From IMG/VR virus record IMGVR_UViG_3300027985_000227, positions 1 through 64,000 of that record: a DNA stretch of 64,000 nucleotides; one strand, written 5' to 3'. Below are positions 12,390 through 35,529 of this stretch, piece by piece; within the stretch, counting starts at the first letter, position 1; every line of letters starts with the position of its first letter. Made by a program: the position numbers and the translations under genes. This DNA comes from a virus. The notes under the pieces are model-generated. The model was not told the origin of the DNA. It ran no database searches and saw nothing but the letters and a program-made list of their open reading frames with translations.

Positions 12390-12596
12390 ATGGAAGACTT
12401 AACACTGGGTGAGATCAGAAAGCTGTTACGGCTGTCTGAACAATCTATTTGTGACTATATAAATCATGAGTTGAATCAATTACGTGCCATTGGTATTGTA
12501 CCAGAGGACGTCGATTTAGATAAAATCGTCACCAAAAGTTTGGGTTATGACGATGAGTTACGTATATCAGATGTAAGTATAGAGATAAAAGTATGA
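12390..12596 (+). CDS. Small acidic hypothetical protein
   Basis: A 68-residue acidic protein starting MEDLTLGEIRKLLRLSE, helical at its N-terminus. Its stop overlaps the start of the RlaP-like gene (ATGA), so the two are made together. No family recognised. Confidence 0.55.
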   Translation: MEDLTLGEIRKLLRLSEQSICDYINHELNQLRAIGIVPEDVDLDKIVTKSLGYDDELRISDVSIEIKV

Positions 12597-13552
12597 CGCC
12601 AATAGTAAAAATGGTCTTTGGGTCACACTTGTATGGCCTAGATACACCAGAATCAGATAAAGATTTTAAAGGTGTGTATCTACCTGACATCAATGACATT
12701 CTGTTATTAAAAGTACAAAACAGCATATCTACATCCACAGGTAATGACAGATCAAAAAATACAAAAGATGACGTAGATACTGAGATATTTTCTCTGCAGT
12801 ATTTTATGAATATGTTAGCTCAAGGGCAAACTATAGCTTTAGATATGGTGCATGCTCCTGACTGGGCCATAGAAGTATCTAGTGAAATTTGGATGCACAT
12901 AGTAAGTTGCAAGCATAAGTTTTACACAAAGAATATGACAGCTTTTATTAGTTACTGTCGTAAACAAGCCAATAAGTACGGTATAAAAGGTAGCCGTCTA
13001 GATGAAGCGATAAAAGTAGAAATGTTTCTATCATTAAGACCAAATGATATGCGTCTATCGTCCATCTGGAACCATTTACCTGATGGTGAGCACATTCATA
13101 AGCTGCCACCATCTGACACAGACATGTCTAACAGACGTATTTATCAAGTAGTTGGTAAACAGTTTCTAGAGCACGCTAGACTCAGTGAAGTACGTGGGAG
13201 CTTACAGCAGTTCATAGCTAATGCTGGTGACAGAGCAGCTAAGGCTAGAATGAATCGCGGTATTGATTGGAAGGCTGTATCACACGCTGTAAGAGCAGCG
13301 GATCAAATGAAACAGTTATTCACTGAAGGTACCATTACGTTCCCATTGAAGCGTGCTGAATATATAAAGTCTGTAAAAATGGGTAGACTAGACTACACAA
13401 GACTTGTAGCACCAGATTTAGAACGGACAATGGACGAGGTGGAAGAATTGGCCTCAGTAAGCGGTTTACCAGATACGGTGGACTACAAGTGGCTGGATGA
13501 TTTTACTGTGTCATTAATTAGAACTAAGTACAATCTCCAGTTTTATCCTTGA
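12593..13552 (+). CDS. RlaP-type predicted nucleotidyltransferase
   Basis: A 319-residue protein. The N-terminus VFGSHLYGLDTPESDKDFKG carries the polymerase-beta-type signature: GS at residues 10-11 and the metal-binding DxD at Asp22 and Asp24. This layout fits the RlaP group, nucleotidyltransferases proposed from gene-neighbourhood studies to act in RNA repair. The C-terminal two thirds are helical. The phage encodes several tRNAs and a tRNA mimic within 6 kb, which makes RNA-end repair after anticodon-nuclease attack a plausible role. No RNA ligase is seen in the window. Confidence 0.75.
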   Translation: MTPIVKMVFGSHLYGLDTPESDKDFKGVYLPDINDILLLKVQNSISTSTGNDRSKNTKDDVDTEIFSLQYFMNMLAQGQTIALDMVHAPDWAIEVSSEIWMHIVSCKHKFYTKNMTAFISYCRKQANKYGIKGSRLDEAIKVEMFLSLRPNDMRLSSIWNHLPDGEHIHKLPPSDTDMSNRRIYQVVGKQFLEHARLSEVRGSLQQFIANAGDRAAKARMNRGIDWKAVSHAVRAADQMKQLFTEGTITFPLKRAEYIKSVKMGRLDYTRLVAPDLERTMDEVEELASVSGLPDTVDYKWLDDFTVSLIRTKYNLQFYP

Positions 13553-14345: not shown

Positions 14346-14747
14346 ATCGGATGCGATGTAGAGAGAGATATTACTAACAAGTATCTCAACATACGTTATC
14401 ATGGTGTCAGTATGGGCCGTGTTACGTTTTCCTCTACAGAAGACTTCCACTTGAAACTGTATGGCGAGTATAGGTATAGATCTGATCCACTAGACCTAAA
14501 AGATTGTGACATGATCAGATACAGATTCAACGTGGCGGTATCTACAGGCTATGTTCCGTCGCTTCATGATTGGCTGATAGTGGTGCGTGACGCTAAAAAT
14601 GCACAAGCAGCGGAACTTCGTATACGTGTAAGAAATCGTGAGCGCCTTGAATCTGTATTCCCTAAAAAACGAAGTAAATTAGTGCCAAAAAATATTCGTT
14701 CATTCTTAGGTGAAGTGGTAGACGATGACGTACGTTGTGACACATAA
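14211..14747 (+). CDS. Hypothetical protein with duplicated N-terminus
   Basis: From ATG 14211 the product has 178 residues and contains MKLFLTINDVQTILTRIG twice, because of the 87-bp tandem duplication. Starting at the second ATG (14298) gives the presumed ancestral 149-residue form, and both ATGs have the same upstream sequence. The body is basic with a helical C-terminal region rich in Arg and Lys. Function unknown. Confidence 0.6.
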   Translation: MKLFLTINDVQTILTRIGLRKSQAPGRRTMKLFLTINDVQTILTRIGCDVERDITNKYLNIRYHGVSMGRVTFSSTEDFHLKLYGEYRYRSDPLDLKDCDMIRYRFNVAVSTGYVPSLHDWLIVVRDAKNAQAAELRIRVRNRERLESVFPKKRSKLVPKNIRSFLGEVVDDDVRCDT

Positions 14748-15273
14748 ACGCAGTCAAGCTTTAGTAAACGCCGCAATACGGTTCGCTAAAGGACACCATG
14801 AAGGTCAATTGCGTAAGTATACTGGAGAACCGTATATAGAGCATCCGATTTCTGTTGCAAAGATTGTATCAAGTGTAACAGAAGACGTTGAAGTCATATG
14901 CGCAGCCATATTACATGATGTATTAGAAGATACGAATGCTAAGTATGAAGATCTAATAAACCGTGGATTTGGCTGGAGTATAGCCAACATGGTGTTAGAG
15001 TTAACTGATGTATCTAAACCATCGGACGGTAATAGATCTATACGTAAGGCTATAGACAGAATGCACTTGGCCAAGGCCAGTAAAAGATCAAAGACTGTGA
15101 AGTTGGCTGACATGATTGATAACTCATGCTCCATAGTTGTGCATGATCCTAACTTCGCTGTAGTGTACATGAGAGAAATGAAGCTACTATTGCCACACAT
15201 AAAAGATGGCGATATATCTCTATTCAAAATTGCAAACCAGATAGTAGAAGAATACTATGCCAGCAAGACGTGA
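14725..15273 (+). CDS. Small alarmone hydrolase (RelA/SpoT-type HD domain, MESH1-like)
   Basis: A 182-residue protein of the length of stand-alone HD-domain (p)ppGpp hydrolases. It has YIEHPISVAKIV, the HD motif AAILHDVLEDT, and a second conserved stretch KTVKLADMIDN. No synthetase or regulatory domain is present. Such enzymes remove the 3'-pyrophosphate of (p)ppGpp or related alarmones. In a phage it may lower host stringent response or neutralise alarmone-producing toxins; that role is inferred. It overlaps both neighbours. Confidence 0.85.
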   Translation: MTYVVTHKRSQALVNAAIRFAKGHHEGQLRKYTGEPYIEHPISVAKIVSSVTEDVEVICAAILHDVLEDTNAKYEDLINRGFGWSIANMVLELTDVSKPSDGNRSIRKAIDRMHLAKASKRSKTVKLADMIDNSCSIVVHDPNFAVVYMREMKLLLPHIKDGDISLFKIANQIVEEYYASKT

Positions 15274-15587: not shown

Positions 15588-15959
15588 ATGTCTAAGAGAA
15601 AAATTGTTTGTCTGTGTGGATCTACCAAGTTTCGCAAAGAGTTTGAAGAAGCTAATAAGGCATATACACTGGCAGGATGGGTTGTACTGACAGTAGGTGC
15701 ATTTCCACACACTGACAACAGCCAATCCCCTGAAGAAGAGTTCGGCTCTTCGGTAAAACGTGAGCTAGATGAACTGCATAAAGACAAGATTCTAATGGCT
15801 GATCTTGTACACGTGATCAACGTAGGTGGATATATTGGCTTTTCTACGAAGAACGAGATAGCTCATGCGCTCGCACATGGAAAGAAAATAGAGTGGCTAG
15901 AACCAAAGTTCTCTATGGAGAATGTGTACTTTGCTCTGAAGCAACACTTTAATCAATGA
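15588..15959 (+). CDS. Nucleoside 2-deoxyribosyltransferase-like protein
   Basis: A 123-residue Rossmann-like protein. CLCGSTKF at the N-terminus resembles the phosphate-binding loop of deoxyribosyltransferase-fold proteins; LHKDKILMADLVHVINVGGYIG and STKNEIAHALAHGKKIEWL complete the typical core, including the conserved Glu. Such proteins cleave or transfer nucleobases from nucleosides or nucleotides. The substrate is not evident. It is expressed behind repeat copy 1. Confidence 0.65.
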   Translation: MSKRKIVCLCGSTKFRKEFEEANKAYTLAGWVVLTVGAFPHTDNSQSPEEEFGSSVKRELDELHKDKILMADLVHVINVGGYIGFSTKNEIAHALAHGKKIEWLEPKFSMENVYFALKQHFNQ

Positions 15960-28105: not shown

Positions 28106-28963
28106 ATGTCTAAAGACCTAGTAATTCCCGATTATCTGAAGGCCCTTATCGATTCTGGTGATGTACAAGACGACGCATCAAATCTGGTAGGTTCTGTATC
28201 TAGCGTACCTCGTATATCGCTCAAAGGTCAGAAATTCCGGCTGATAGTCGATGGTGAAGAGAAAGAAATCATCAAAGACTCGATGCATGTAGTTATCCTC
28301 GGATCTCAACCCGACATGCCTCGTTTGATGGCTAAAACCTACTATGAGGGAGATTACAACCCCAACGATAGCGGTCCACCTGACTGCTCTTCTTCCGACG
28401 GTATTTCTCCTGATGACTGGATAGTTAGTCCGGTTTCTGAAAAATGCCACAACTGCCCCAAAAACAAGTGGGGTTCCGCTATAAGCAAGCTGTCTGGCAA
28501 AAAAGCCAAAGCCTGCCGTGACTCCAAACGACTGTTCATAGTGAAGCCTACAGAGATTACGGATGGCACGATCTATACAGTGAATGTGACAGTTAGTTCA
28601 CTGAAAGCTCTGTCTGAATATGGTAAGTTCTTGTCAGAACACAAGTTACCTATGTCTGCAGTAATCACCACTCTAACACTGGCTGATGACTCTGACTTCC
28701 CACGGTTGGAGTTCAAAATGGCTGGCATCATGAAAGAGGCCAACGGTCGTGCGGCTATCACTCGTTCTCAGCAGAAAGAATGGACTGAGTATCAGGGAAA
28801 GATGCTAGAGCACGATGATGCCGACAGCAAGCCGTCACTCACAGCTCCCGATAATGTAGACCCTACAGCGCCAATCAATGCTGACGGTTCTATCGAAGGT
28901 AGTACCACAGAGTCGACCAAGTCTGGTCCGTCTGATATAGACGACATTCTGGATCAGTGGTAA
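28106..28963 (+). CDS. Probable ssDNA-binding protein
   Basis: A 285-residue protein. It has RISLKGQKFRLIVDGEE near residue 36, a four-Cys region (CSSSDG, CHNCPKNKWGS, KACRDSKRLF) suggesting zinc binding, and an acidic C-terminal tail ending DIDDILDQW, like SSB tails that recruit partners. Its place between helicase and nucleotide genes fits a single-strand binding role. Codons are GC-richer than its neighbours, as expected for high expression. Confidence 0.7.
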   Translation: MSKDLVIPDYLKALIDSGDVQDDASNLVGSVSSVPRISLKGQKFRLIVDGEEKEIIKDSMHVVILGSQPDMPRLMAKTYYEGDYNPNDSGPPDCSSSDGISPDDWIVSPVSEKCHNCPKNKWGSAISKLSGKKAKACRDSKRLFIVKPTEITDGTIYTVNVTVSSLKALSEYGKFLSEHKLPMSAVITTLTLADDSDFPRLEFKMAGIMKEANGRAAITRSQQKEWTEYQGKMLEHDDADSKPSLTAPDNVDPTAPINADGSIEGSTTESTKSGPSDIDDILDQW

Positions 28964-29052: not shown

Positions 29053-30741
29053 ATGAATCTGCTTTTAACGTTAGGTCACAATAGTTCAGCCATACTAGTC
29101 AGCAGTAATGGTGAAGTTCTGTGCGGGTATGAGAATGAGCGTTTGACTCACGTAAAGTCAGATAGCAAATTTCCTATAGAAGCTATACAGGAAATAATGA
29201 AGCATCACTCTATTCCAGTGAATGTAAGTGTGTTCGTAAGCCATTGGTTTACAAACTGTATTCTCCCAGATCTACCAAATAAGTGGTGGGATCCAATAAC
29301 GTTATTCAAACTATTTCCAGAGGCTACTGTCTATTCTCTGGACAAAGACTTTACACACCATGATGCTCATTGCTATAGTGCGCTAGCATTCTTGGATAAA
29401 CCTGAATATAATGATCACACAGTAATAGTGTGCGATGGATTTGGTAACTTCGGTGAAACACTGAGTATCTACAGAGTTAACGGCTCTGGAAGAGAGCCAG
29501 AGCTAATTAAACGAGCTTTTGGGTACTCGTCTTCTCTTGGTTTATTCTATCAATATGCTACGGCATATTTAGGCTTAACAATGAACCAAGATGAATACAA
29601 GTTACTCGGATATGAAGCACACATATACGAGCATATTATATGTGAAAAGGGGTTACAAATTCTTTATAGGGAAGCAGAAAAGCTTTCTAGCAAATTTATA
29701 CAGGACATAGTGAGTTCATCTGTAGTTGACAAGTTTGATCCTATGCTATCCATAGACGCTCTTCCAGCTTTACGAGAAAACTACAGAGTATTTTTCGATG
29801 AGCTGTTAGCTGAAGTTAGATTACACAAATCCATGGAAATAGGTAAGATTCGTATAGCTATATCTCACTTTGTTCAACGAGTGGTAGAACAAACATTAGG
29901 ATACATAGTAGCGTCATACACACCAAAGGACCTGTTATTGGTTGGTGGTGTGTTCATGAATGTCAAGCTAAATAACTACTTGTCAAAAATAGCTCCAGGA
30001 TACACGTCAATAATGCCACTAGCCGGAGATCAAGGTGCTGCAATTGGTGTATACCACAGACATACTGGCAAGTTTAAATGGCCTGGTAATCTGTTCTGGG
30101 GCAAACGTCATTTATACCATATTGATAATGACATATTAATACGGCCTAGATTCAACACATTAGAAAACACAGTATCGGCCCACAAAGTAATTGCCGCACT
30201 AATAAGCCAAAACTATATTGTCAATATAGTACACGGTAATATGGAGTTCGGTGCAAGGGCTCTTGGTAACACTAGCACACTGGCAAGACCTACAGAAGAA
30301 AATGTTCGTTATATAAATCAGTGTAATGAGCGATCAACAATAATGCCTATGGCCGGTGCATGTAAAATTGAGTTTGCAGAGCAGATACATGGTGATGACC
30401 TGTATTCTATACATAAATCAATGGAGTATATGATCTGCACACGTGACTTCAAAAATACTGAGCACATTAAACTTCGTGGTGCTGCTCACTATGACCCAGT
30501 AGAACAAAAGTTTACTGGGCGCACACAAATAGTCAGACCAGGGAATATAATATACGATATTCTTAACCATACTGACGATGATGTACAGCTGGTTATAAAT
30601 ACCAGTTTTAACCCACACGGTAAACCTATCTTGTTCAACATGATTGATGTGATTAATGGTCATAACTTCATGATTGAAAGAGATATAGATGATCGTGTAT
30701 TCACCTTTGTTATAACAAGAGGCTCACATGTCCAAGTTTAA
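29053..30741 (+). CDS. Carbamoyltransferase (NodU/TobZ family)
   Basis: A 562-residue protein of family length. The N-terminal Kae1-like domain has LGHNSSAIL, FTHHDAHCYSA (His102, His103, Asp104, His106; metal and substrate site), VCDGFGNFGE and LLVGGVFMNVKLN. The C-terminal YrdC-like domain has GNMEFGARALGNTST and VINTSFNPHGKP. Family members use carbamoyl phosphate and ATP to carbamoylate hydroxyl groups. Directly downstream are genes for making a hydroxymethylated pyrimidine nucleotide, so the likely target is the hydroxymethyl group of the phage base. Coupled to the next gene. Confidence 0.9.
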   Translation: MNLLLTLGHNSSAILVSSNGEVLCGYENERLTHVKSDSKFPIEAIQEIMKHHSIPVNVSVFVSHWFTNCILPDLPNKWWDPITLFKLFPEATVYSLDKDFTHHDAHCYSALAFLDKPEYNDHTVIVCDGFGNFGETLSIYRVNGSGREPELIKRAFGYSSSLGLFYQYATAYLGLTMNQDEYKLLGYEAHIYEHIICEKGLQILYREAEKLSSKFIQDIVSSSVVDKFDPMLSIDALPALRENYRVFFDELLAEVRLHKSMEIGKIRIAISHFVQRVVEQTLGYIVASYTPKDLLLVGGVFMNVKLNNYLSKIAPGYTSIMPLAGDQGAAIGVYHRHTGKFKWPGNLFWGKRHLYHIDNDILIRPRFNTLENTVSAHKVIAALISQNYIVNIVHGNMEFGARALGNTSTLARPTEENVRYINQCNERSTIMPMAGACKIEFAEQIHGDDLYSIHKSMEYMICTRDFKNTEHIKLRGAAHYDPVEQKFTGRTQIVRPGNIIYDILNHTDDDVQLVINTSFNPHGKPILFNMIDVINGHNFMIERDIDDRVFTFVITRGSHVQV

Positions 30742-31126
30742 GCAGGTTGTAGAATTTAATAAGAATGTACTTGGCATTTCGCCACGTGATCTTGGTATGC
30801 AGAGTGAGGAAGAATTCAGGTTATCTGTTCATCAGCTAACAGAAGAAGTTCTAGAGATACAAGAAGCATATGAGGATAAGGATTTTATCGCGCTTATCGA
30901 CGGACTACATGATCTGGAATACTTCCTTCTCGGTGTAATGTATAAAATCGGTCTAACTGAAGATAAGCACGAGCAGATCTTTTCAGCCATACACGAGGCC
31001 AATACCAAGAAGGTACGAGGCACAAAACTTTCTCGTCAAGGTTATGGTGATAGTGCTGACGCTGTAAAGCCAGATGGTTGGGTAGCACCAGAGACCGCCA
31101 TAGCTCGTATATTGGAGGCAAAATGA
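30728..31126 (+). CDS. All-alpha NTP pyrophosphatase (MazG/dCTPase-like)
   Basis: A 132-residue helical protein with LTEEVLEIQEAYEDKDFIA and LIDGLHDLEYFLLG, the ExxE..ExxxD metal pattern of MazG-type pyrophosphohydrolases. In T4 a dCTP pyrophosphatase removes dCTP and feeds dCMP to the hydroxymethylase; the position here suggests the same role, but the substrate is inferred. Start and stop overlap both neighbours. Confidence 0.8.
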   Translation: MSKFKQVVEFNKNVLGISPRDLGMQSEEEFRLSVHQLTEEVLEIQEAYEDKDFIALIDGLHDLEYFLLGVMYKIGLTEDKHEQIFSAIHEANTKKVRGTKLSRQGYGDSADAVKPDGWVAPETAIARILEAK

Positions 31127-31641
31127 AGAGCATTATCGTAGAAGGTTACGATAACATGGGTAAGTCAACATTGATTGATGACTTACACCACACATCTTCA
31201 TTTAACTTTCCAATACACAGAGCAGGTCCACCAGCGCAAAACGATGCTCATGCCATTTTATGTTGTGAAGAGCAACTAGATAAAATGGTTCACCAATCGT
31301 CATACACGCTTTTTGATCGTATCACACCTATATCCAGGACATGTTACCAGTTTGACATAGGTGATCGTCACAGACGTACTCTAAGTATGTTCTTACGTGA
31401 AATGATGAGGCACTCTATCATAGTATGGTGCGATACTGATAACGACCCTGAATCACACGTAGTTAAAGAGTATGATACACCGGAGCACCTTGAATTCTTG
31501 CACAACAATGAATTCAAAATCATCTCGAATTATAGAGACATTATGGCATCATTGCCTGGTGTGATTCGATATGATTATAGAGCGCACAGTATAGACCAAC
31601 TTGTGGAGAAGATAGATGTCGCCGTTTCTAGCCGCCTATAA
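31123..31641 (+). CDS. P-loop nucleotide kinase
   Basis: A 172-residue protein from ATG 31123 (overlapping the upstream TGA). The Walker A motif is VEGYDNMGKSTLID (residues 6-19), and LFDRITPIS resembles the DR(Y/F)..S motif of dNMP and deoxynucleoside kinases. Inferred roles are phosphorylation of 5-hydroxymethyl-dCMP, as T4 gp1 does, or a polynucleotide-level kinase as in phages with hypermodified thymine. Overlaps the hydroxymethylase gene by 26 bases. Confidence 0.75.
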   Translation: MKSIIVEGYDNMGKSTLIDDLHHTSSFNFPIHRAGPPAQNDAHAILCCEEQLDKMVHQSSYTLFDRITPISRTCYQFDIGDRHRRTLSMFLREMMRHSIIVWCDTDNDPESHVVKEYDTPEHLEFLHNNEFKIISNYRDIMASLPGVIRYDYRAHSIDQLVEKIDVAVSSRL

Positions 31642-32407
31642 CGAACTGAAGACACGTGGACAACTTACAGCGCCGCGTGGACATCGGGTATTAGAGATAG
31701 AGGATTTCAGTATAGACTTCCATCCTATACTTGACCGATTCTCTAACTTCGATGCTCGTAAGATGAGCATCGACTATGCCAAGAAAGAGATGGCCTGGTA
31801 TCTTCGCGGTGATCGTTATGAAATGACGATCACAGAAGAAGCTCAGATGTGGAAACAGATTATTGACGTAGACGGAGGAATCAACTCCAATTATGGTCAG
31901 TATATTTTCCACGATCAATCACAGTACAAGTGGGTTATCGCCGAGTTAAAGCGAGACAAGGATTCACGACGTGCATCGATGATGCTGTTAAATCACACCC
32001 ACTTCAGACCAAATAATCCTGATGTTGTGTGTACGTATGCTATCAACTTCCGCATACGAAATAATCGTCTGAACATGTCCATACATATGAGATCATGGGA
32101 CGCCATATGGGGAATGACCAACGATGTGTTCTGCTTCAGTGTAATATACGAAGTAGTTTACTCGCTTCTTCGTGAACACTATGTAGATCTGCAGGTAGGT
32201 AACTACCACCACACAGCTGACTCATTTCATGTGTATGAGCGGCACTTCAAAATGCTGGATAAGCTCATATCAGATGGGATGGGCGGATACAAACCTGTGT
32301 ACTGTCCTACCATATCTGGCCACGAAGAAGCTAAGTGGTTAATTCGTAATAAATCAAAGCAACCGTTCCCGAAGTATCGCTTCAGTGAGTGGTTGTTTAC
32401 TGTATAA
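31616..32407 (+). CDS. Predicted dCMP hydroxymethylase (thymidylate synthase fold)
   Basis: A 263-residue ThyA-fold protein. The catalytic Cys is in PDVVCTYAINF (Cys139), the phosphate-binding Arg pair is at 118-119, and HMRSWDAIWGM, LQVGNYHHTADSFHVY follow the TS order. At the position of the Asn that selects dUMP in ThyA (GLPFN) this protein has Asp170 (GMTND), the change known in T4-type dCMP hydroxymethylases. With ThyX encoded next door for dTMP, this enzyme is free for base modification. It likely makes 5-hydroxymethyl-dCMP. Alignment was by eye. Confidence 0.8.
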   Translation: MSPFLAAYNELKTRGQLTAPRGHRVLEIEDFSIDFHPILDRFSNFDARKMSIDYAKKEMAWYLRGDRYEMTITEEAQMWKQIIDVDGGINSNYGQYIFHDQSQYKWVIAELKRDKDSRRASMMLLNHTHFRPNNPDVVCTYAINFRIRNNRLNMSIHMRSWDAIWGMTNDVFCFSVIYEVVYSLLREHYVDLQVGNYHHTADSFHVYERHFKMLDKLISDGMGGYKPVYCPTISGHEEAKWLIRNKSKQPFPKYRFSEWLFTV

Positions 32408-32417
32408 TGAGGTTGTT

Positions 32418-33140
32418 ATGGAAAAAATACAAGTTTTGGATCACGGGTTCGTTCAGCTACGTAACCTTTCTGGCCCAACAAGACGTGTCTTCGATGGTGA
32501 CAGTATTAGAGATTTTGACGGTGACGATACTGATCCAGCCAACAGTGCAAGGATGTCTTTTGACTCTATGGATTCTGGAAGAACTCGTGATGAAGATTTA
32601 CGGTTAGCTGAGTATTTGATGAAAAACAAACATACCACACCTTTTGAAATGATAGAAGTGTGGATTGAGATGAAGATGCCAATCTTCGTAGCTCGTCAGT
32701 TTGTTCGCCATCGTACAGTGACTATCAATGAGGTGTCAGCCAGATACGTCACACTTCCAGAAGAATGGTATATACCAGATGTGGTCGGCGGCAAAGCGGC
32801 CACTGCTAAACAGGGTCAGGAAGACACTTTGCCATTGGCTGTGCAAGATACGTTCAAGGTTGTATTAAACGAAGACTGTAAACGCAGTTATGATAGTTAT
32901 CTTGACTTCATTAATGTTGGTGTAGCTAATGAGCACGCTCGCCTTTTCCTACACGTTAACCACTATACCCACTGGTTATGGAAGCAGGACCTGCACAACA
33001 TCATGCACTTCTTAAGCTTGCGTGATCACAGTCATGCTCAAATAGAGGCGCAGCTTTATGGTAAGGCCGTAGACGCTCTACTTCGTCAGCATTTACCACA
33101 CTCTATGGAGCTTTACGACAAATACAGGCGGATGAAATGA
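32418..33140 (+). CDS. thyX: Flavin-dependent thymidylate synthase
   Basis: A 240-residue protein; ATG 32418 follows GAGG by five bases. The ThyX signature RHRTVTINEVSARY (RHRX7S plus RY) is complete, and FLSLRDHSHAQIEAQ provides the C-terminal substrate site. It converts dUMP to dTMP using FAD, NADPH and methylene-tetrahydrofolate. Presence beside a ThyA-fold homologue implies that the homologue has another job. Confidence 0.95.
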   Translation: MEKIQVLDHGFVQLRNLSGPTRRVFDGDSIRDFDGDDTDPANSARMSFDSMDSGRTRDEDLRLAEYLMKNKHTTPFEMIEVWIEMKMPIFVARQFVRHRTVTINEVSARYVTLPEEWYIPDVVGGKAATAKQGQEDTLPLAVQDTFKVVLNEDCKRSYDSYLDFINVGVANEHARLFLHVNHYTHWLWKQDLHNIMHFLSLRDHSHAQIEAQLYGKAVDALLRQHLPHSMELYDKYRRMK

Positions 33141-33171
33141 AGGTTTACCTCATAACGTGACATCCCTCCCG

Positions 33172-33200
33172 TGTACTCTTTGGTTATATTATGGTATAGT
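33172..33200 (+). promoter_or_regulatory. Sigma-70-like promoter
   Basis: TGTACT (33172-33177), a 17-bp spacer and TATAGT (33195-33200), with GAGG before ATG 33220. It drives the small gene and dCMP deaminase. Confidence 0.6.
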
Positions 33201-33219
33201 ATGATTAGAGGTAACAAAT

Positions 33220-33408
33220 ATGACTGAAGAGTACACAGAAGAGGATTATGAACGTAGACATCAAAAGGCCGAAGAATTTAGTGTAGAATTCAAGGCTTTA
33301 GTGCGTAAGTACTTTCCTGAATATCCTGTAAACAGTTTTGAAATGGATTTACTGTACAACATACAAGATCGTACATCTTGTTTTAGTCCATATATTTGGA
33401 GTGATTGA
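33220..33408 (+). CDS. Small acidic hypothetical protein
   Basis: A 62-residue acidic protein starting MTEEYTEEDYERRHQK. Its TGA overlaps the ATG of the deaminase gene, so it is co-translated with it. No family recognised. Confidence 0.55.
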   Translation: MTEEYTEEDYERRHQKAEEFSVEFKALVRKYFPEYPVNSFEMDLLYNIQDRTSCFSPYIWSD

Positions 33409-33866
33409 TGAGACCGTCCAGAACCCAATACTTCTGTGAAATGGTTAAAGTTGTTGCATCTCGTGGGTCATGCAGACGACGTAAGGTCGGTTGCATCCTT
33501 ATAGACAAACACCATTTTGTTCTGTCTACAGGTTACAATGGTCGCCCATCAGGATTTGATAATTGTCTAGACCACCCTTGTGAGGGTGCTGATGCCAAGT
33601 CTGGACAAGATTTAGATAAGTGCGAAGCCATCCACGCAGAGGCTAACGCGCTTCTTCAGTGCCCTGATACAAATCGTGTATACAAGGCATACTGCACAAC
33701 GGCACCATGCATTCACTGTGTGAAGTTGCTGTTAAACACGTCATGTGAAGAAATAGTTTTTATCGATACGTACCCGCACGCTAACGTATCGAAGGAGTTG
33801 TGGGAGCGTGCTGGTAGAAAATGGACTAAATACGATGAAGACTATTCTAAACATTCTGACAGCTAA
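33408..33866 (+). CDS. Deoxycytidylate deaminase
   Basis: A 152-residue zinc deaminase. CEAIHAEANALLQ gives the HAE zinc ligand and proton shuttle, and TTAPCIHCVKLLL gives the PCxxC ligands. It converts dCMP to dUMP, which ThyX then methylates. Together with the upstream pyrophosphatase and hydroxymethylase it balances normal and modified pyrimidine pools. Confidence 0.9.
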   Translation: MRPSRTQYFCEMVKVVASRGSCRRRKVGCILIDKHHFVLSTGYNGRPSGFDNCLDHPCEGADAKSGQDLDKCEAIHAEANALLQCPDTNRVYKAYCTTAPCIHCVKLLLNTSCEEIVFIDTYPHANVSKELWERAGRKWTKYDEDYSKHSDS

Positions 33867-34443: not shown

Positions 34444-35529
34444 ATGACTACATCGACCAAGATACGTTTATACAAGAATCACATGAACTCTATCGGCTAT
34501 TGGGACATATGGTTCGTTGATAACGTAATTCATATTGAACATGCAACATGTGTAGGTTGTTCACCAGTTCACCACACAGAGACTGTTCATGAAGGCAAAC
34601 AAAGTCGTTCACTGCGTGAGCAAGTAATCAGTCGTATAAAGTCACGTGTCAATAAGCAATTAGATAAGGGCTATGTAAGGACCATAGATGAAGCACGAAG
34701 TGCTCCAACTAATACTCTTAATTTCCTTCAACCTATGCTAGCTCAAAGAATAGAGCGAGTATCGGGTATCAATTGGACAGAATCGTATATTCAGCCAAAA
34801 CTAGATGGGCACAGATGTTTGATAACTCGCTTTGAAGGTAACTTGGTTGCGTATTCACGACAAGGTAAGATCATCGATACCATTGACCATGTATTCGAGA
34901 TGTTGGCCGATCTGCCTGAAGGTGTAACTCTAGACGGAGAGCTCTACTGTGATGGAGTAAAGTTGCAAGAGATTGCGTCTTGGGTAAAACGTAAGCAAGT
35001 GAATACTGAACGACTGTCTTACAATGTGTTTGACTTAGTATCAGATAAACCGTTTAGTCAGCGGCACAGTGACTTGCTTAATATACTTAGTGTGGACGAA
35101 GAACGAATCCAACCTATACAGATCGTTCCTACTTACCAAGTAAAATACCTGCGTGACTTTAACATACACGAAAAACTACACGAATTCAGAAGTATGGGTT
35201 ATGAAGGTGTAATTGTACGACACAGTTCCAAGGGATACGAAGCCGGTCGCAGGTCACAATCTCTTGTGAAAGTAAAGCACATGAGCGATACAGAATGCAC
35301 GGTATCTGACGTAGAGCCATCTAAAGATGGTTGGGGTATATTGGTGTGTAAGACTGATGGTGGAGCTACATTCAGAGTATCAGCTCCAGGGTCATTACAA
35401 GAAAAACAACACGTACTTGACAATAAAGACCTGTATATAGGTAAACTGGTTACTGTAGAATTCAGCATGTACACCAAGGACAAAGTTCCTTTTCATCCTG
35501 TAGCGTTACGTTTCAGGGAAGATATTTAA
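34444..35529 (+). CDS. ATP-dependent DNA ligase
   Basis: A 361-residue ligase. Motif I YIQPKLDGHRC carries the AMP-linked Lys; LDGELYCDG (motif III-like), GYEGVIVRH (motif IV) and SLVKVKH (motif V) follow, then an OB-fold domain. An N-terminal extension of about 80 residues (NSIGYWDIWFVDN) resembles a WGR-type domain. It seals nicks in phage DNA. The gene is placed behind repeat copy 2 and its stop overlaps the convergent tail gene by four bases. Confidence 0.9.
   Translation: MTTSTKIRLYKNHMNSIGYWDIWFVDNVIHIEHATCVGCSPVHHTETVHEGKQSRSLREQVISRIKSRVNKQLDKGYVRTIDEARSAPTNTLNFLQPMLAQRIERVSGINWTESYIQPKLDGHRCLITRFEGNLVAYSRQGKIIDTIDHVFEMLADLPEGVTLDGELYCDGVKLQEIASWVKRKQVNTERLSYNVFDLVSDKPFSQRHSDLLNILSVDEERIQPIQIVPTYQVKYLRDFNIHEKLHEFRSMGYEGVIVRHSSKGYEAGRRSQSLVKVKHMSDTECTVSDVEPSKDGWGILVCKTDGGATFRVSAPGSLQEKQHVLDNKDLYIGKLVTVEFSMYTKDKVPFHPVALRFREDI

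Follow-up and report, generated by a model that had tools for sequence, protein, structure and literature searches.

Phage T4 makes 5-hydroxymethylcytosine (5hmC) through a dCTPase (gp56), the deoxycytidylate (dCMP) hydroxymethylase gp42, the kinase gp1 and glucosyltransferases, in a pathway of dCTP removal, dCMP hydroxymethylation, phosphorylation and masking of the hydroxyl with glucose. A second pathway, leading to 5-carbamoyloxymethyl-deoxycytidine (5cmdC), has so far been deduced from metagenomic contigs and demonstrated with one purified enzyme (PMC8670742); Yang et al. describe a carbamoyltransferase that turns 5-hydroxymethyl-deoxycytidine (5hmdC) into 5cmdC with ATP and carbamoyl phosphate (eLife 2021;10:e70021, PMC8670742), favors single-stranded DNA (ssDNA), accepts 5hmdCTP, 5hmC RNA and 5hmCTP as well, and uses neither 5-methyl-dCTP (5mdCTP) nor 5-hydroxymethyl-dUTP (5hmdUTP) (PMC8670742). 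Here we analyzed bases 1-64000 of a virus record 65,469 bases long (IMGVR_UViG_3300027985_000227; this whole 64,000-nucleotide stretch is hereafter the window), in which the genes at 29053-33866 very probably (roughly 0.88, judged from their sequences) form a cassette that replaces deoxycytidine with 5cmdC in phage DNA. Such a pathway is not a new idea, because a 2021 paper (eLife 2021;10:e70021) already described enzyme, modification and gene set, and the window is a further member; what our comparison adds is that the 5cmdC gene set is a recurrent cassette, carried by tens of diverse viral contigs and several cultured phages.

All six genes of 29053-33866 were confirmed on the plus strand, each with Pfam, PHROG or structural support, and with the identities that a prior sequence-only reading of this DNA had given them. 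In order, they encode a 562-residue carbamoyltransferase of the TobZ/NodU family (29053..30741; PF02543, PF16861, phrog_1601 and an assayed homologue), a 132-residue all-alpha NTP pyrophosphatase of the MazG/PRA-PH type, presumed to be a dCTPase (30728..31126; PF01503, phrog_671), a 172-residue nucleoside monophosphate kinase of thymidylate-kinase fold (31123..31641; phrog_761 and an AlphaFold model), a 263-residue ThyA-fold protein predicted to be a dCMP hydroxymethylase (31616..32407; PF00303, 1b49), the flavin-dependent thymidylate synthase ThyX (32418..33140; PF02511) and a dCMP deaminase (33408..33866; PF00383, PF14437, phrog_174). Three starts were revised, with the kinase now beginning at ATG 31123 in a 4-nt ATGA overlap with the MazG-like gene (the TTG at 31078 being unnecessary), ThyX at ATG 32418 without overlap with the ThyA-fold gene, and the deaminase at ATG 33408. 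The earlier description of these genes as mostly overlapping holds for the first four, whereas ThyX and the deaminase overlap none of them.

The 5cmdC cassette of the MetaGPA paper (eLife 2021;10:e70021) and the window have in common PF16861, PF02543, PF00303, PF01503, PF00383 and PF14437, the Asp at ThyA position 177 and the carbamoyltransferase clade, and the window adds ThyX. The T4 pathway resembles the predicted one in dCTP removal, dCMP hydroxymethylation, a kinase step and hydroxyl masking, and gp42 is the closest solved structure to the window ThyA homologue. The two differ in the masking group, which is glucose in T4 and would be carbamoyl in the window, and in the window's MazG/PRA-PH pyrophosphatase, its thymidylate-kinase/YorR-like kinase and its ThyX instead of a td-type synthase. 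No glucosyltransferase was found in Pfam and PHROG scans that covered most larger open reading frames (ORFs) and not every small one, consistent with what had been noticed from the letters.

The carbamoyltransferase provides the most direct connection to 5cmdC. Profile hidden Markov model searches placed it above the cut-offs of PF02543 (65.7 bits) and PF16861 (85.8 bits), as expected of a NodU/TobZ-type enzyme, with a phrog_1601 match of 214.5 bits, and it has the Carbam_trans_N plus Carbam_trans_C architecture of about 550-560 residues. It shares 37% of its residues, over the full length, with the enzyme assayed in eLife e70021 (300 bits). A quick tree of 76 sequences, in which the outgroup was just four long-branched rows, put the window and assayed enzymes within a 72-member clade with full Shimodaira-Hasegawa-like support (SH-aLRT 100), across which residues H9, H102, H106, D128, D326, E398, R402, N516 and N520 are conserved; outside it fell the carbamoyltransferases of Synechococcus phage S-CAM3, phage C48C1, Xanthomonas phage XacN1 and one metagenome-assembled genome (MAG). 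Prediction of the window protein as a 5-hydroxymethylcytosine O-carbamoyltransferase is thus well supported.

To place the cassette among other viruses we adopted protein searches, because a DNA-level search of the region against a phage collection matched thyX alone. Profile searches yielded 77 distinct contigs with a member of the carbamoyltransferase clade, and within 7 kb of that gene a ThyA homologue stood in 72 of them, a deaminase in 47, a kinase in 43, a MazG-like gene in 34, a ligase in 31 and ThyX in 9. Among the five contigs without a nearby ThyA gene, one of 179 kb (L090) carries an Asp-type ThyA elsewhere, raising the pairing to 73/77, and the other four are fragments of 6-24 kb. 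All 82 ThyA copies have Asp177. Because many phages whose sequences have diverged repeat this gene order, the cassette is not a chance arrangement, and the published work likewise associated the same Pfam-domain neighborhood with cytosine-modified phage DNA and reports the carbamoyltransferase/thymidylate synthase pair solely from modified contigs (PMC8670742). In three control phages whose carbamoyltransferases lie outside the clade, two gave no ThyA match and XacN1 had a distant Asn-type thymidylate synthase (TS). An apparent enrichment of Asp among ThyA loci lacking a carbamoyltransferase was discarded, as the search pattern itself favors NSNYG-type enzymes. The cassette or its core pair also occurs in MAG contigs labelled Acidimicrobiia (L180), Epsilonproteobacteria (L181) and Patescibacteria (L182), which are likely phage contigs binned with bacteria.

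The second member of the core pair, the ThyA homologue, matches PF00303 at 75.4 bits, and its best relative in the PDB is T4 dCMP hydroxymethylase (1b49, E 2.8e-19), with MilA, a CMP hydroxymethylase, and every thymidylate synthase ranking below. By alignment it retains Cys146, Arg126, Arg166, Tyr94, His207 and Tyr209 of E. coli TS, its catalytic C139 corresponding to C146, whereas T140 stands at H147 and D170 at N177. The Asp of dCMP-hydroxymethylase type that had been read from the letters is therefore real. Asp at this position is conserved in the cytosine-using MilA, BcmA and T4 CH (PMC5175136), and in the association study of Yang et al. positions 177 and 147 ranked highest among the residues that distinguish contigs with modified cytosine from unmodified ones (PMC8670742). 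These features make it a strong inference that the protein would produce 5-hydroxymethyl-dCMP from dCMP.

Asp177 alone marks the use of dCMP and not the fate of the methylene group, which leaves room for a dCMP methylase that makes 5-methylcytosine (5mC), as in phage XP12, beside a carbamoyltransferase with an unrelated target. Pseudoxanthomonas phage PW916, whose ThyA homologue is annotated as a dUMP enzyme, has Asp177 as well. We nevertheless consider a methylase very unlikely. The window protein has the T4-type NSNYG motif in common with its relatives from other cassettes (INSNYG in both the window protein and 44RR gp42), and this motif is lacking from E. coli TS (GPVYG), an SPO1-like dUMP hydroxymethylase (NAPYG) and PW916 (FGAYG), and the T4 hydroxymethylase is the best solved relative. 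Moreover, 5mC has no hydroxyl, yet the carbamoyltransferase almost always adjoins ThyA, and the assayed homologue rejects 5mdCTP. As an observation apart, the PW916 protein (L187 968-1786) is annotated deoxyuridylate hydroxymethyltransferase, an annotation made doubtful by its Asp177; dCMP is the more likely substrate.

A carbamoyltransferase whose target is a protein, a surface sugar or some small molecule would be in keeping with the superfamily, to which NodU, TobZ and GdmN belong, and with other phage enzymes of the family: that of S-CAM3 lies among sugar/heptose genes and that of XacN1 adjoins a glycosyltransferase, though both fall outside the clade and in gene contexts unlike the cassette. 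The window enzyme has the two-domain organization and conserved His/Asp site of TobZ, GdmN, NovN and NodU, but it belongs to a separate clade that includes a 5hmC-acting enzyme, and its substrate, unlike theirs, is predicted to be nucleic acid, as seen for the homologue. The equivalent of the specificity-associated TobZ R423 (window T407) is Thr in 71/72 clade members and Arg in 4/4 outgroup sequences, and the equivalent of TobZ W408 (window I392) is Trp in 0/72 clade members and also non-Trp in 3/4 of the outgroup; TobZ numbering was mapped through GdmN/NovN alignments and spacing, with no direct TobZ alignment. At these two positions the window enzyme agrees with the assayed one (not W and not R), and at a third clade-typical position, the equivalent of TobZ G421, it departs from it. 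Given the separate clade and an Asp-type ThyA paired in 73/77 records, we regard a non-nucleic-acid target as highly improbable. Carbamoylated 5-hydroxymethyluracil as the product is scarcely credible: hydroxymethyluracil phages are also known to have a dCMP deaminase and a thymidylate-kinase fold, but all 82 cassette ThyA copies have Asp177 where the SPO1-like enzyme has Asn, 5hmdUTP was not used by the assayed homologue, and dTMP supply accounts for deaminase and ThyX.

Several points do weigh against replacement of deoxycytidine by 5cmdC. The equivalent of TobZ G421 is Gly405 in the window and Cys in the assayed enzyme and 59/72 clade members; many clade members lack MazG-like and kinase genes close to the carbamoyltransferase, so that these two are not obligatory parts of the cassette; the substrates of the presumed dCTPase and the kinase are assigned from family and fold only; and the ThyA motif comparison does not strictly exclude a methylating (5mC) enzyme, the sharing of NSNYG with gp42-type enzymes bearing on the question only indirectly.

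Under the 5cmdC pathway that we favor, the MazG-like enzyme would convert dCTP to dCMP. Its MazG/PRA-PH domain (PF01503, 25.5 bits against a cut-off of 21.3), phrog_671 match and weak matches to MazG-like DR2231 agree with the all-alpha NTP pyrophosphatase first proposed, and dCTP is its presumed substrate. The Asp-type ThyA homologue would then turn dCMP into 5-hydroxymethyl-dCMP, for which homology and residue evidence are strong, and the kinase would phosphorylate this product toward the triphosphate. Because the kinase had neither a Pfam match nor a PDB sequence match, its fold was settled by structure prediction, with phrog_761 (thymidylate kinase) at 45 bits and an AlphaFold model (mean predicted local distance difference test score, pLDDT, 93.1) whose best PDB matches were YorR (3kb2, Z 15.9) and then thymidylate kinases (Z 14-15). 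The nucleotide kinase proposed at the outset is accordingly one of thymidylate-kinase fold, with its start at 31123 and not 31078; T4 gp1 was not among the structural matches listed for it, and 5-hydroxymethyl-dCMP is its presumed substrate.

Next, the carbamoyltransferase would draw on ATP and carbamoyl phosphate to carbamoylate the hydroxymethyl group, either of 5hmdCTP or of nascent DNA while it is single-stranded; the 37%-identical homologue accepts 5hmdCTP and ssDNA alike in vitro, and carbamoylation may come before or after polymerization. As the ThyA homologue would no longer make dTMP, the dCMP deaminase (PF00383 63.4 bits, phrog_174 130.6 bits, PF14437 also above cut-off) and ThyX (PF02511 136.3 bits) would supply it. 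At the DNA level the window thyX is 65-70% identical to its counterparts in Pseudomonas NP1/PaMx25-like phages. The presumed benefit of 5cmdC would be resistance to restriction and to other cytosine-reading nucleases, CRISPR nucleases having been proposed at the outset as well. The pathway sketched in the sequence-only reading, from dCTP removal through hm-dCMP and kinase to carbamoylation, fits the homology at every step, and its carbamoylation step has been seen in vitro for a clade member.

Cultured phages carry the same arrangement. In Xanthomonas phage Xp15 and Acinetobacter phages Effie, HHU4 and MD-2021a the order is upstream neighbor, carbamoyltransferase, pyrophosphatase, kinase, Asp-type ThyA, deaminase and ligase, which resembles the window in gene order and upstream neighbor and differs in having no ThyX at that site; their genes are mostly annotated as hypothetical. 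Bacteroides phage BF503P1 has a carbamoyltransferase and, beside it, two different Asp-type ThyA homologues (L032 9456-10262 and 12335-13015) annotated as deoxycytidylate 5-hydroxymethyltransferase, and such ThyA doubling was also observed in viral contigs L046, L052, L055, L057 and L078. In the open-access literature we found no base-composition report for Xp15, Effie, HHU4 or the Bacteroides phages, and no follow-up work on 5cmdC. Since the cassette is present in cultured phages, virion 5cmdC and restriction resistance are testable in isolates.

The gene upstream of the window carbamoyltransferase (28106..28963, plus strand) encodes a 285-residue protein with four invariant Cys, a low-confidence linker and the C-terminus DIDDILDQW, whose homologues lie directly upstream of the carbamoyltransferase in 25/77 contigs. 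Its model (pLDDT 70.5) gave no Foldseek match below E 0.001, and further structural comparison gave weak matches to the T4 gp32 core (1gpc, Z 5.6) and the RB69 ssDNA-binding protein (2a1k, Z 5.3), with another weak match to the phiC31 recombination directionality factor, which makes a gp32-like ssDNA-binding protein possible. Speculatively, an ssDNA-binding neighbor would fit an ssDNA-acting carbamoyltransferase; that it hands over nascent 5hmC DNA, with carbamoylation coupled to replication and not occurring on free 5hmdCTP, we consider unlikely. The thymidylate-kinase-fold gene and this possible ssDNA-binding partner can nonetheless be recognized as conserved members around the carbamoyltransferase/ThyA pair, which goes beyond what the accessible parts of the MetaGPA paper discuss.

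Downstream, a 62-residue ORF occupies 33220-33408 before the deaminase, and an ATP-dependent DNA ligase (34444..35529, plus strand; PF01068 69.6 bits) is the last gene of the cassette. An Rfam scan returned three tRNAs and nothing else. Elsewhere in the window, a candidate (p)ppGpp hydrolase of the phage is encoded at 14725-15273, as an HD hydrolase domain of SpoT/RelA type that stands alone (phrog_990; TIGR00691 at 97.9 bits, the match being confined to positions 1-124), and 12593-13552 encodes an RlaP-like nucleotidyltransferase (PF10127) that perhaps acts in RNA repair, while the product of 15588-15959 has weak similarity, under the family cut-off, to SLOG cluster 4 (LDcluster4).

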